Source: Candidatus Zixiibacteriota bacterium
GTDB taxonomy: Bacteria; Zixibacteria; MSB-5A5; RBG-16-43-9
DNA: 60,356 nucleotides
Direction: 5' to 3'
Assembly (NCBI GenBank): GCA_030692925.1
Contig: JAUYBY010000080.1
Location: 1 to 60,356 of the forward strand
Under the pieces are notes generated by a model, which saw nothing but the letters and a program-made list of their open reading frames with translations, was not told the origin of the DNA and ran no database searches. Positions 2,480 to 51,453 of the stretch are shown one piece after another. Each line of letters begins with the position of its first letter. Position 1 is the stretch's first letter. The translations under genes were made by a program, and so were the position numbers.

Positions 2480-2547
2480 TAACTCGAAAGTTCTGTGTTC
2501 CGCACGGTTCAGGGAGTTTTTTGATCTCGGCGAAATGGTAGAGTGAG

Positions 2548-2565
2548 TCCCGCATGTTTGCGGGA
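2548..2565. repeat. TCC...GGA mini-palindrome in tRNA-Asn anticodon arm
   Basis: An 18-nt hairpin TCCCGC-ATGTTT-GCGGGA. It starts with TCC after a G and ends with GGA, like the other mini-insertions of the window. Confidence 0.55.
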
Positions 2566-2580
2566 TTAACCGCTAAGTTG

Positions 2581-2603
2581 TCCGAATTTGGATCCATTCT
2601 GGA
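2581..2603. repeat. TCC...GGATCC...GGA mini-palindrome in the tRNA-Asn T-arm
   Basis: A 23-nt unit beginning TCCGAAT, with a TTGGATCCA core and ending GGA. Its exact removal restores the tRNA T-stem. Confidence 0.65.
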
Positions 2604-2662
2604 CAGGTTCGAGCCCTGCCCGAGGAGTTTTTAACATCTGATCAATAAAAAGGAGGTATTTT

Positions 2663-3030
2663 ATGTTGCGAGTAGTTCACTTTGAAATCAATGCGGATGA
2701 CCCTGAGAGAGTAGTGAAGTTTTACCAGAAGGTATTTGGCTGGAAAATCGAGAAGTGGAATGGTCCCGTGGCTTACTGGTTGGTGACCACTGGTCCAAAT
2801 GACCAGCCGGGAATAAATGGCGGAATTATGAAACGAATGAACCCTCAAGCCAGCACTTACAACACGGTGGATGTCCCATCAGTGGATGAATTCACTAAAA
2901 GAATTGTGGAAGCGGGCGAAAGATCGTTGCTCCCAAGATGACTATACCAGGAGTGGGCTGGATGGTTTACTGCACAGATACTGAGGGTAATATTTTCGGA
3001 ATCATACAAGAGGATCCAAAAACCAGGTAA
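2663..3030 (+). pseudogene. VOC (glyoxalase/bleomycin-resistance) family protein, single-base frameshift
   Basis: The gene starts at an ATG after a strong AAAAGGAGG ribosome site. Residues 1-85 show a VOC fold: VVHFEINADDPERVVKFYQK and FGWKIEKWNGP, with metal-site-type His/Glu positions. At about 2915-2920 the frame breaks; the stop is at 2939-2941. One frame over the family's C-terminal end continues perfectly as IVAPKMTIPGVGWMVYCTDT and EGNIFGIIQEDP to a stop at 3028-3030. Inserting one G in the GCGGGCGAAAG run would repair it to ~122 residues, the usual length. So this is either a recent pseudogene or an assembly/sequencing error. Members include small-molecule dioxygenase-like and lyase-like enzymes; the substrate cannot be told. 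Confidence 0.75.
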
Positions 3031-9073: not shown

Positions 9074-9090
9074 ACCCTTATTAATCCTTC

Positions 9091-9180
9091 TGCTCTTCGT
9101 CCGAATTTGGATCCATAGGATTGGTGTCTTCACCAACGAAGAAAAGGTCGTTGGTCAGGAGACCAAACGACCAGCTAATG
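9091..9180. repeat. TGCTCTTCG/TTGGTGTC hairpin repeat carrying a TCC...GGA insertion
   Basis: The unit TGCTCTTCG-TTGGTGTCNTCACCAA occurs uninterrupted at 31960-31985. Here the same words are split by 21 bases at 9100-9120 that begin TCCGAAT, contain TTGGATCCA and end GGA. Further downstream hairpins (TTGGTCAGGAGACCAA) also match the 31.9 kb copy. Confidence 0.75.
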
Positions 9181-9305
9181 ACATTCTTCTTTGTCCCGCT
9201 GGAACTGGAGAATAGAAGGGCGAGTCCGCCTTCGGTGGATCGCCCCTACAAAAACTGCCTGTCTCGCTGAGGTAGGAGTTGAACACTCTCCTTAGTTTTT
9301 ATCTG

Positions 9306-10484: not shown

Positions 10485-10720
10485 GGGCGTATTGCAGTTC
10501 GACGATTCGACAAGCTCATCGTGCTGAGCCTTGCCGAAGCACAAGCTCACCGTCCCGACTGTTCGTCTTTGCTCACAGTCCCTGAGTCTTCGACCCTGAG
10601 ACTCAGACCCGAAGGGCGAAGTTGAAGGGAGCAAAGTCGAGGGACCGACTCACTGCTCTGACTGTTCGACTGAACTCACAGTCCCTGAGCGAAGTTAAAG
10701 ACAATACGCCCTTACAAAAA
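10485..10720. repeat. Spacer packed with TTCGAC/TCGTCGAA-type palindromic repeats
   Basis: A 435-base gap with no convincing gene. It contains ATTCGACAAGCTCA...TGAGC...GCCGAAG, a widespread bacterial intergenic repeat word, plus repeated CACAGTCCCTGAG and GACTGTTCG units in several copies. A related TTCGACAAGCTCACCGTCCT unit lies at 51212-51247. Confidence 0.5.
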
Positions 10721-11450: not shown

Positions 11451-12719
11451 CTAAAATTCATACCTTAAGATCGAGTAAAGATTATCGTTTTTATCCAATT
11501 GACCTAAAAAGGTAGTCCTTTTTTCTCCTCCAAAAAGATTACCCCCTAAAGCTACCCAGAGATTGTCTGTGATTCGATAATTAACTTCGGGAATGAAAAA
11601 ATAGTCCTTATCCGTGGGGCTATAAAATCCGAAGAAGGATAGTTTCAAAGTCTGATATTTTAAAAGCTGAGTAGCTCTGAAAGTTAGAACTTGCCGGAAC
11701 TTATCCTGTTCAGGAAAACCTGGAGGAAGGCTCTTTTGATAATTTTTATAATCTTTCATATACTCACCATAATATTGCCCGCTATAAGTGAAATCGGTCC
11801 AGCCCTGTCTTTGATAACCAATCAAAAATTTACTAAAAGAATTAGGGATAAGAGGGTCTTCCCCTCTACGGTCCTGCCGGGAATCATAATAGCCATATTC
11901 TAAACTGAGTATTCCATTCAGAAGATCTCTTTGTAAAGTAAATCCATAAACTGAAAGTTCAGGGAAAAAGTAGGTAATCTTTGAAGGTGTGGGGAAACTA
12001 TCCGGGAGGATAGAGGGGGTTCGATAAAAACCCCTGTAAAGATAAAATGAAAGCTCAAAATTGGAAAGGGTGCGGTAAAGACGCAACGCCTCTTCTACAT
12101 TTTCAAATTTTGAATCAGGCTTTTGGATCTGTTTAAAAGACACATTAAGAAAAGGATCAAAGAGGAAGAAATTTTCAGAGGTAGGGTAATTATCGGATTC
12201 AAAAAAAGGTAACAAAGCTAACTCGGTTGAGAATATATCTGAGGAAAAGCTTATTCTTAGCCCATCTACCCCCAATTTTAGATATTCCATAGGCCGGCCT
12301 GAAAAAAAGGCTTGCCAGTCCTTGGGAAATAGATCATTAATAAAGAGCAAATCCCCTAGCCCCCAGGTGATGATCTGGCGGCCAATCCTAAAATCAAAAG
12401 CCTTTAAAGGATAATCTAAATACGCCTCCCGAATTTCAAGGCCGGTTTCCTTTTTCAAGGCATTTTCAAAGAAATCAGTTTTGGCAAAAAATTTTGCTTC
12501 TCCAAAGGATCCAAATTCGGATTTTTCAGAGCCAGAAAATTTGAGCTGAAACCTGTGATCCCCCAAGAGAAAATCACCTTGAGCTAAGGGAGGAACCAGC
12601 CCGGTGGTTCTAAATGAATAGTTAGTTTGAACAAAACCGTGCCACTCAATTTCCCGGGAAAAAGAAATTGAGAAAAGAAAAAGGAAGATAAAAAATGAGA
12701 AAATCACCTTTTTATTCAT
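11451..12719 (-). CDS. Outer-membrane beta-barrel protein (DUF1302/porin-like)
   Basis: A 422-residue exported protein: signal peptide ~1-22 (FSFFIFLFLFSISFSREI), then alternating hydrophobic/aromatic strands with short turns and a terminal aromatic residue (ILRYEF), as for outer-membrane barrels. An RIGRQIITWG element is typical of DUF1302/alginate-export-like barrels that accompany MMPL/LolA operons. It is the last gene of a six-gene operon; the preceding stop TAA abuts this ATG directly, which implies translational coupling. Inferred role: the outer-membrane channel for what the RND pump and LolA-like carrier move. Confidence 0.8.
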   Translation of the reverse strand: MNKKVIFSFFIFLFLFSISFSREIEWHGFVQTNYSFRTTGLVPPLAQGDFLLGDHRFQLKFSGSEKSEFGSFGEAKFFAKTDFFENALKKETGLEIREAYLDYPLKAFDFRIGRQIITWGLGDLLFINDLFPKDWQAFFSGRPMEYLKLGVDGLRISFSSDIFSTELALLPFFESDNYPTSENFFLFDPFLNVSFKQIQKPDSKFENVEEALRLYRTLSNFELSFYLYRGFYRTPSILPDSFPTPSKITYFFPELSVYGFTLQRDLLNGILSLEYGYYDSRQDRRGEDPLIPNSFSKFLIGYQRQGWTDFTYSGQYYGEYMKDYKNYQKSLPPGFPEQDKFRQVLTFRATQLLKYQTLKLSFFGFYSPTDKDYFFIPEVNYRITDNLWVALGGNLFGGEKRTTFLGQLDKNDNLYSILRYEF

Positions 12720-12929: not shown

Positions 12930-13757
12930 TCATTTTATCCATTTTGAAGGTGGATTTTTCAAATATCTTTCCGTGAAAAGATTTTCTTCCATCCCCAGAT
13001 TATATTGGATATCTTTAAAGCTGACCAAGGTCTGATGACCGGTTTTTACATTTTGCATTCTTCTTTTAGTCACTGTCCAGAACCCCTGGATCTGTTTGAG
13101 TTCCTCTGCGCTAAAAATTTTGTAGAGCTCACCCTTTAAATCGTAATACTCCTCTTTTAAAGGAAGGAAGCTCTCTTTATCTATCCAGGAAAGCCTATAG
13201 CTATAGTCTGCGCTTTTAGGGTCCTTAGGGACACTTTTCAAAACATAACAATCCCCTGCCTGTCCCATGGATCCAAAATCGGAGATTTTTTCTTCTCTCA
13301 GGATAGAAAAATCATCCTCTTCTAAGTCCCTGCCTGAGACATCCTCATAAGTGAAATCCGAGCCCACAAAGCTAGAGCGCTTGTCTTTAGCTGCAATCCT
13401 TTTGACTAAATTTAAAGCCGGCATAAAAAGCCAACGGTCGTCATCTTTTTTAGGGTATTTGTAAACCATAAAGCTCATCCCCCGCACATCTGCGGGCTGA
13501 TGAAAATAGATAAAATATTTCTGCTCCAATCCTTTGGGTGAGTTTTTCCTTAACATAGTTAACTCTCTTATTCTCTCTTGGCCACCCTTTTCGATAAGTT
13601 GCATAGAGACCAAAACCTTGAAATCCTTCCCCGGATAGAAAAAGTACCCCTGGTACTTAGCGGCCACTTCTGGAGCGGTAAATTTTTCCTGTCCCCAAAG
13701 AACAGATGGGCTGAAAATCACAAAAAGACCTAAAGTCAAAAAATATTTTTTAAGCAT
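12930..13757 (-). CDS. LolA-like outer-membrane lipoprotein-sorting protein
   Basis: A 275-residue periplasmic protein with signal peptide ~1-22 (cleavage near LWG-QEK). The body fits the LolA/LolB-like fold family annotated outer membrane lipoprotein-sorting protein that regularly neighbours MMPL transporters: residues ~110-140 include KKDDDRWLFMPALNLVKRI, then SFVGSDFTYEDVSGRD, then a strand-rich end. It likely ferries a hydrophobic molecule across the periplasm between the RND pump (gene just upstream, 13-base gap) and the barrel protein. It is not the housekeeping LolA, which is shorter and lacks these motifs. Confidence 0.85.
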   Translation of the reverse strand: MLKKYFLTLGLFVIFSPSVLWGQEKFTAPEVAAKYQGYFFYPGKDFKVLVSMQLIEKGGQERIRELTMLRKNSPKGLEQKYFIYFHQPADVRGMSFMVYKYPKKDDDRWLFMPALNLVKRIAAKDKRSSFVGSDFTYEDVSGRDLEEDDFSILREEKISDFGSMGQAGDCYVLKSVPKDPKSADYSYRLSWIDKESFLPLKEEYYDLKGELYKIFSAEELKQIQGFWTVTKRRMQNVKTGHQTLVSFKDIQYNLGMEENLFTERYLKNPPSKWIK

Positions 13758-22463: not shown

Positions 22464-22934
22464 AGATTTTCTCCGGATATTTTGACAGCAAAATAGACAA
22501 TTGATGATTCTTTGTCAATTTATGTTTTGAATCCCCCTCTCCTCGTCCGTGAAACGGATCCGTAGGATGGGAGAGGGATAAAGGGAGAGGCTTCTCGGTA
22601 GGTCAGACATTCTGAGACTGTTGCTCAACTCCTGAAAAACCCATATTCATTCAGGAGACGTGAATGTAGGGACAGCCCTTGTGGCTGTCCCTATTAGGGT
22701 TAGGACAGGGACCACCGCCTTTGGCGGGATTTCGCATCGCTCAACAAGCTTTTCCCTACAAAAAAATTCACCTAAAAAAGACTTCGGCAAAGACTCTTCT
22801 TGTCTGACAGTCTGACACAGACAGGAATGTCTGTGTTACCTCATTTAACAAAAGATAAACTTGCTTTTTGCCATTCAAACCGTTAAAATAACTTTGTAGC
22901 AGTCTTAAGAAAAAGAACCTCAATAGATATAAAA
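22464..22934. repeat. Repeat-filled spacer, 470 bases
   Basis: No gene. It holds a CCCCTCTCCTCG...TGGGAGAGGG hairpin whose loop carries a 22-base TCC...ACGGATCCGT...GGA unit (22546-22567), a GTAGGGACAGCC...GGCTGTCCCTA hairpin (22666-22693) and a CCGCCTTTGGCGGGA palindrome (about 22714-22729). Confidence 0.6.
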
Positions 22935-26410: not shown

Positions 26411-26577
26411 CGCACGAGCGGAGAAAAAGATTGCTAAGTTCTATTTCAGTCCTGGGTGGCTACGAGCGAGCCCGCCCGTATGGGCGCCAGACGGAGTCTC
26501 CGCTTTCCCGGAAATGGGGCTGGAGTTTTAAGGAAAAAAGGGTCCGAAGGATCCATTTTGGACTTGATTTCTCCAAA
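26411..26577 (+). pseudogene. Duplicated 3' end of a patatin-barrel gene, split by two TCC...GGA insertions
   Basis: From 26414 the sequence reads ARAEKKIAKFYF, broken at 26450 and resuming at 26513 as RMGLEF-stop (stop at 26529-26531). The patatin gene ends GRAEKKIDKFYFRMGLEF-stop, so this is a tail copy. The 63-base piece 26450-26512 begins TCC and ends GGA; removing it restores the peptide exactly. After the stop, a second 20-base piece 26543-26562 (TCCGAAGGATCC...GGA) splits GGAAAAAAGG from CTTGATTTCT, which are contiguous after the patatin stop at 25577-25600. Confidence 0.8.
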
Positions 26578-27330: not shown

Positions 27331-27401
27331 TCCTACGGATCCGTTTCTAGGACAGTTCTCAGAATGGGGCTGAAGTTTTAGAAAAAGGGCTTGATTTCTG
27401 T
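27331..27401 (+). pseudogene. Second duplicated patatin-barrel tail with adjacent TCC...GGA palindrome
   Basis: ATGGGGCTGAAGTTTTAG (stop 27379-27381), then AAAAAGGGCTTGATTTCTG, matches the end of the patatin gene (RMGLKF here against RMGLEF) and its downstream bases. A 22-base TCC-TACGGATCCGT-...GGA unit lies just before, at 27331-27352, within an 8-bp CTGTCCTA/TAGGACAG palindrome. Confidence 0.7.
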
Positions 27402-46163: not shown

Positions 46164-46575
46164 CTATCCACCTTTCAACTACTTTTAAGGCATTATCACT
46201 AAAATAGATATCGACCAATGGTAATACGTTAATACCCCTTATACCTTTTGTCAAGAAATAAATCGTAAATAAGGGTTAAAGGGGCTAAGGGTTCAAGAGC
46301 TCAAGGGAGAAAGAGGATGACGGTTTTTGAATAATGAAAGATACTTTATACATTGACTCCATTTAATTCTTTAAATGGAAACCTGTCCGAAAAACGGATC
46401 CGTAGGAAAGGTTTCCGCCCTACGGGGGTCTAAGCCCGGCGTAGCCGTCGTAAGGCTTTTATCGACTACAAAAATCTTCTCTTCTGCTCTATTTTAACCA
46501 AAAAACATCTGGCTAAAAGTTCCTTTTTAAGTTATATTTTTTGCAGAGGATACTTTTCAAAAAAAGGAGATACTT
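46164..46575. repeat. Repeat-bearing spacer between thiC and ACT gene
   Basis: It contains GGAAACCTG...AGGTTTCC whose loop holds a 22-base TCC...ACGGATCCGT...GGA unit (46386-46407), directly followed by CTACGGGGG...GTCGTAAGGCTTTTATCGAC (46420-46466), a near copy of 3627-3673. Confidence 0.7.
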
Positions 46576-51070: not shown

Positions 51071-51453
51071 TTATTAGCAACCTGATTAGTATTTATTTTC
51101 CCAATCTTTCGTAGGGCAAATCTTTCCGCTGGATCCAAATTCGGACTGGTTTGCTTTTTTCTTTTTCACTCCGCCACTGGCGAAGCCCTACAATCTTCGG
51201 ACAACCACACGGTTCGACAAGCTCACCGTCCTGAGCAGAGCCGAAGGAAGGGTTGTCCCTACATTCCTACAGTTTTTCATCCGACATTCGTGATCCGTCA
51301 TCCGTAATTGTTTTTTCTATTTTCCTTCTTCTGTCTTACATCTTCCTTTTTATTTATTCATCATTCGTCATCCGTCATTATTTCCACTTGAACCCTTGAC
51401 CCCTCGTCCGCCTCTGGCGGATTGAATCCTCGCAACATTTTATCCCGCATAAA
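51071..51453. repeat. Repeat-filled livM-livG spacer
   Basis: From the livG side: GTAGGGCAAATCTT...GGTTTGC hairpin whose loop carries a TCC...GGATCC...GGA unit (51125-51145); GGACAACC...GGTTGTCC hairpin whose loop carries a TTCGACAAGCTCACC...GCCGAAGGA unit (51205-51260); TCATTCGTCATCCGTCATT repeats (51281-51380); and ACCCCTCG-TCCGCCTCTGGCGGA-TTGAATCC (51400-51429). Confidence 0.7.

Follow-up and report, generated by a model that had tools for sequence, protein, structure and literature searches.

The tRNA-Asn Copy in the Window and Its Relatives

The window, that is, the whole 60,356-nt stretch of DNA analysed here, corresponds to contig C79 of a 91%-complete Zixibacteria genome assembly of 2.41 Mb (G000). 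Near its start, a ParB-like gene is followed by a broken tRNA-Asn copy with two palindromic inserts and by a glyoxalase-like gene, and the features of the locus are listed below.

2120–2479, − strand: ParB-like HTH gene, probably left by a serine-recombinase element (PF17762, E 2.3e-9)
2526–2627, + strand: tRNA-Asn pseudogene, the third copy found in G000 (alignment to four intact genes; neither ARAGORN nor Rfam matches)
2534–2576, + strand: 43 nt matching the broken tRNA-Asn copy G000:C11:8581-8623 at 100%, hairpin within (sequence match)
2548–2565, + strand: insert 1, 18-nt hairpin TCCCGCATGTTTGCGGGA that replaces six native bases (CGGCTG) of the anticodon arm (alignment, folding)
2581–2603, + strand: insert 2, 23-nt unit TCCGAATTTGGATCCATTCTGGA between GTTG and CAGG, clean and without target duplication (family pattern, copy alignment)
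2604–2660, + strand: tRNA-Asn 3′ half and downstream leader (96% identity to G002:C15 3′ of its intact tRNA-Asn)

The segment 2526–2627 is an ordinary tRNA-Asn pseudogene, and the remarkable part of it is the unit that breaks its T-stem. Its descent from tRNA-Asn was evident in an alignment of ten tRNA-Asn copies from four genomes, in which the 5′ piece GGTAGAGTGAG and the stretch TTAACCGCTAAGTTG both match tRNA-Asn and positions 2604–2627 equal the 3′ part of the intact genes with no differences; the sequence is as the preliminary description had given it, with a 3′ half and 5′ pieces of tRNA-Asn. The 3′ part and the next 33 nt share their 96% identity with the intact locus of G002, where the same glyoxalase-like gene follows. 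In the window, this glyoxalase/bleomycin-resistance-like gene (2663–3030) appears to be frameshifted, because its ORF stops at 2941 and the continuation seems to be in a further frame.

The acceptor and D arms of the window copy are damaged, the 5′ acceptor strand included. The Rfam tRNA model gave no match to 2400–2760 even at E ≤ 10 (raw sequence, inserts in place), and ARAGORN at default settings found 0 genes in each of four versions of the copy (as is, without insert 1, without insert 2, and without both), while the intact control copy was called tRNA-Asn in the same test. At a lowered threshold (-ps60), ARAGORN made other calls, with no Asn among the calls listed. Excision of both inserts leaves 61 nt in which the 5′ strand of the anticodon stem is missing. 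A cloverleaf with a GTT anticodon was recognised in the intact control and not in the window copy; the preliminary description had named the absence of a tRNA-Asn match after excision as evidence against itself, and this absence was found for the copy as a whole. The RNA fold of the copy is unremarkable (z −1.47), and no relation to another RNA family was found, the two Rfam hits, with E values of 4.3 and 5.2, being far under the cut-offs.

The search for another intact tRNA-Asn in the genome, also proposed earlier, was successful: G000 has 37 tRNA matches, at least one of them an intact tRNA-Asn, at C11:8400-8472 (67.5 bits), with a broken copy just upstream. Five of the ten aligned copies carry no insert, four of them being intact and one decayed (G001:C168), and the other five are broken. 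All five broken copies diverge from the intact tRNA-Asn directly after GAGTGAG and contain a hairpin, namely TCCCGCATGTTTGCGGGA in both G000 copies, TCCGCCTAAGGCGA in G002, and TCCCGCAGTTGGCGGA and TCCCGCAGTTATGCGGGA in G003. The hairpins of the G000 and G002 copies occupy the position of CGGCTG, and those of G003 replace the entire anticodon loop and most of the anticodon stem. At G003:C152:7566-7756 (L060:2518-2750), the copies form a tandem array, in which two copies with a GC hairpin replacing the anticodon arm come after an intact tRNA-Asn at a spacing of about 78 bp.

Distinct Properties of the Two Inserts

Insert 1 folds as DNA with −7.8 kcal/mol (z −5.05), a value equalled by 0 of 200 shuffles, so the 18-nt hairpin described earlier in the anticodon arm is real. 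It has no GGATCC core, recurs in the second broken copy of G000, and has its place taken by other hairpins in the broken copies of the two related genomes, G002 and G003. Insert 2 is missing from all nine other aligned tRNA-Asn copies, and excision of 2581–2603 closes the T-stem GCAGG/CCTGC, as had been noted earlier. The empty sites for this insertion are paralogous in every case, and none is orthologous.

The GGATCC-Cored Unit Is Dispersed in Zixibacteria

Insert 2 belongs to a family with the pattern TCC-N3..8-GGATCC-N3..8-GGA, a pair of mini-palindromes mostly 20–22 nt long. The 15-base core TCCGAATTTGGATCC occurs 27, 13, 16, and 0 times in G000, G001, G002, and G003, respectively. Five genomes from the same order have it 1–7 times, and the remaining 50 of 59 genomes 0 times. 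The reversed control pattern of the core was found 0 times in all genomes scanned, so insert 2 is no chance sequence. The wider pattern has 37 distinct places within the 375,968 bases that could be read, whereas ten Markov controls averaged 2.1 raw matches. Most units are 21 nt (17), 22 nt (9), or 20 nt (6) long, and G precedes TCC in 35 of 74 cases when the two ends are taken together. When named genomes were searched with the 21-nt pattern, 25 of the 28 stretches were Zixibacteria records; the three outside Zixibacteria are below the ~7 expected by chance from the collection size. Viral carriage was considered and rejected, because a pattern with 18 specified bases hit two IMG/VR stretches with identical surroundings, unlike those of any Zixibacteria copy, which were taken as chance.

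Besides insert 2, the window contains the following members of the family.

9100–9120, + strand: unit whose removal joins the 12-bp palindrome TCTTCGTTGGTG..CACCAACGAAGA
12501–12521, − strand: 21-nt unit in ORF 11451–12719, adding seven residues; missing from G002 with identical flanks (120/120)
13263–13283, − strand: unit in an ORF, also in G002
22546–22567, + strand: unit of the GGATCC-cored family, ortholog too diverged for judgement
26543–26562, + strand: unit-like match of 20 nt, no ortholog found
27331–27352, + strand: unit of the GGATCC-cored family, no ortholog found
46386–46407, + strand: 22-nt unit at the centre of a palindrome, missing from G001
51125–51145, − strand: unit with a variant present in G002

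Empty Sites and In-Frame Insertions

Twenty units on five stretches of G000 were compared one by one with their counterparts in the congeners G001 and G002. Six of the 20 were precisely absent from at least one congener without target duplication: window 12501–12521, C11:14656-14676, and C13:24346-24367 from G002, and window 46386–46407, C13:36598-36619, and C46:29857-29877 from G001, the last being present in G002. Four units are common to a congener (window 13263, window 51125 as a variant, C42:358, and C46:29857, which is also among the six), and for 11 of the 20, the tRNA unit included, the ortholog is missing or too diverged. The unit thus has many copies, is short and palindromic, and displays precise orthologous presence and absence at 6 of 20 sites, as do very small dispersed mobile palindromic repeats in general.

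Protein genes harbour three of the six empty-site units, with a difference of exactly seven residues between the orthologs at these places. The inserts are SEFGSFG in a 422-aa ORF with no Pfam match, SENGSIG in a MarC-family protein, and SEFGSMG in the NAD-dependent DNA ligase LigA. The LigA insert, encoded by a 21-nt unit that is found in G002 and not in G001, is located just before the BRCT domain. The ligA gene that carries it in G000 lies at C46:28081-30126 (L140:8081-10126). Unit lengths are divisible by three in 11 of 14 cases within ORFs vs. 8 of 23 outside (Fisher p 0.017).

A sequence-blind search for clean 15–30-nt insertions was also performed over 145,962 aligned columns, each flank being required to be identical at 13 or more of 15 positions. 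Seven insertions were found on the G000 side, five of which are units, and one on the congener side, which is not a unit; in the same aligned stretches, no unit was present in a congener and missing from G000, so recent activity is evident solely from the G000 side. Since these stretches were chosen for their G000 units, the comparison is biased toward units on that side, though not toward their absence elsewhere.

Serine Recombinases at the tRNA-Asn Locus

At both G000:C11 and G001:C214, a convergent large serine recombinase gene, with Resolvase, Recombinase, and zinc-ribbon domains, lies 3′ of the intact tRNA-Asn, and its reading frame ends inside the tRNA. No recombinase was found beside the window copy, where the ParB-like HTH gene is the only such trace; in G015, a distant relative of this gene (35% identity) follows immediately 3′ of a serine recombinase. 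The region upstream of the tRNA-Asn is alike in G000, G001, and G002. The overlap of recombinases with intact tRNA-Asn genes and the G015 relative support the old integration site that the preliminary description had suspected, and point to the tRNA-Asn locus as a probable integration hot spot.

Two further observations were made in these regions. The last codons of the large serine recombinases at L058:6839-8461 and L061:1469-3013 are antisense to the adjoining tRNA-Asn gene, and a weak tRNA match at L058:927-991 (28.5 bits, cut-off 29) lies near a primase gene on a putative integrated element.

Origin of the Broken Copy

We consider it probable (about 0.85, for the whole explanation jointly) that the window copy is a pseudogene remaining from a duplicated cluster of tRNA-Asn genes where serine-recombinase elements integrate, bearing two palindromic scars that differ in origin and age: the older, GC-rich insert 1 and, as the second, a copy of a mobile palindrome. 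The tandem cluster, still seen in G003, would have been split in G000 by one or more serine-recombinase elements, and C11 and C79 may formerly have been neighbours. The 18-nt GC-rich hairpin would first have taken the place of the anticodon arm's 5′ half; later, a mobile palindrome, mostly 20–22 nt elsewhere and 23 nt here, would have entered the T-stem. The copy presumably tolerates the unit because the intact tRNA-Asn gene does the work.

It had been suggested that a single class of insertion struck this tRNA two times, both inserts being mobile TCC..GGA mini-palindromes. They do share a TCC start and a GGA end, and TCCCGC-N3..7-GCGGGA hairpins are likewise dispersed, with 64 in G000 vs. 1 for the control pattern. 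However, insert 1 has no GGATCC core and cost the tRNA six native bases, none of 58 TCC..GGA hairpins tested has a clean empty site, and among 542 hairpins TCC ends (25) are not the commonest, as GGA ends number 39; membership of insert 1 in the mobile GGATCC family is therefore unsupported, and a single class for both inserts is unlikely. It is rather improbable, too, that the broken copies are conserved as attachment sites or as RNAs other than tRNA, with a hairpin that functions as a terminator, att site, or regulatory RNA. The hairpin position is constant despite differing sequences in five broken copies of three genomes, and GAGTGAG and CTAA are kept, which would speak for such a function; yet the copies have differing or lost acceptor ends, the G002 hairpin and one of the G003 copies are imperfect, and gene conversion could be fed by the adjacent intact copies. 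As to a working tRNA-Asn from which the host splices or trims the units at the RNA level, the clean insert 2 and the T-stem that closes on its excision would suit it, but splicing is unsupported, because removing both inserts yields no tRNA, and unnecessary, since an intact tRNA-Asn is present. The 61-nt product without the 5′ half of the anticodon arm, the failure of ARAGORN on all four versions of a copy whose 5′ acceptor strand and D arm are damaged, and the occurrence of units elsewhere in non-coding DNA and, as extra residues, in protein frames make RNA-level removal exceedingly improbable.

How the Unit May Move

The unit is dispersed, and its precise presence or absence without target duplication was observed in protein genes as well as in non-coding DNA and, with paralogs as the reference, in the tRNA copy. 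Of its sites, 14 of 37 lie within a perfect hairpin (stem of 6 or more), although some of these 14 may stem from a single repeat family and would then not count independently; the figure is 177 of 1500 for random non-coding places and 132 of 2480 for random places. Three units folded as single strands gave weak structures, no better than those of shuffles (z 0.12, −0.92, and −1.02), which counts against a strong hairpin-recognition model. G000 has five matches to Y1 transposases, and no unit was found near Y1 transposase genes at seven inspected loci, whose neighbours are other hairpins, several of them GTAG-tagged; a RAYT link of the unit was rejected on this ground. Hairpin repeats around the genes, several GTAG-tagged, were seen at the Zixibacteria Y1 loci L168, L136:15924-16655, L169, and others.

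The unit probably moves as a discrete piece of DNA. Its most plausible targets would be stretches that become single-stranded during replication and can form hairpins, and it would enter them either by template switching or with the help of a recombinase or transposase that works in trans. Spread of the 20–23-nt units by replication template switching between palindromes, with no dedicated enzyme, would fit the lack of target duplication in six cases, the tendency of the units toward palindromes, and the inspected Y1 transposases without an adjoining unit. Against it stand the three precise insertions in coding DNA and the fact that the donors are family members rather than local inverted copies, so that we regard this route as conceivable but doubtful. 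Somewhat short of even odds, we tentatively propose that the Zixibacteria unit, a 20–23-nt pair of mini-palindromes around GGATCC, is among the smallest mobile DNA known, inserted precisely and without target duplication, be it into a tRNA copy, conserved protein genes, or DNA rich in hairpins, its 21-nt form being a seven-codon insert (SEFGSxG or alike) tolerated by genes such as ligA, and that its mechanism is new to bacterial transposition.

The case bears on how ~20-nt repeats, which are too short for transposon ends to be recognised, can spread in bacteria: movement can be followed here from congener to congener with the flanks intact, in protein genes, and in a tRNA copy, so that unit size and site preference become measurable and candidate enzymes testable. 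The in-frame cases also call for caution, as mobile DNA, and not adaptation, can lie behind a seven-residue insert in a conserved protein.

Comparison With Known Palindromic Repeats

The SDRs of cyanobacteria (Nostoc and others) are about 21–27 nt long, and to our knowledge their sequence is unrelated to the Zixibacteria unit. Both are very short dispersed repeats with palindromic parts; the unit is set apart by description, namely by its Zixibacteria host, its GGATCC-centred pair of mini-palindromes, and its in-frame insertions in conserved protein genes. PMC3116915 names SDRs as short interspersed palindromic sequences and also treats REPINs.

Rickettsia palindromic elements (RPE) share with the unit a palindromic structure and in-frame insertion into genes. 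They are described in PMC10969869 as ~150 bp long and in-frame in unrelated genes, whereas the unit, with ~21 nt and seven residues, is below the RPE size of about 100–150 bp. REPs and REPINs with RAYTs are likewise short palindromes, and GTAG-tagged hairpins and Y1 transposases are present in these genomes; section 7 of PMC3733652 reports REPs nested in other palindromes. In contrast to REPs and REPINs, the unit has no GTAG/CGTC tag in its consensus, is absent from all seven inspected Y1 loci, and sits inside REP-like hairpins and in genes. Palindromes of organelles (Volvox, fungi; double-hairpin elements) lie in non-coding DNA and are often mutually inserted, according to PMC2670323, while the unit is bacterial, has another sequence, and is found in protein genes. 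In a literature search of open-licence papers, no title or abstract listed dealt with a Zixibacteria unit of this kind.

A MITE of a DDE transposon has terminal inverted repeats and a target site duplication; the unit differs from it, as its ends consist just of TCC and GGA, and no duplication is seen at the six empty sites. Two longer stretches of the window, 9087–9261 and 10504–10642, are missing from G002 at abutting alignment ends, and as both contain dispersed repeats, longer MITE-like elements appear to be mobile here too.
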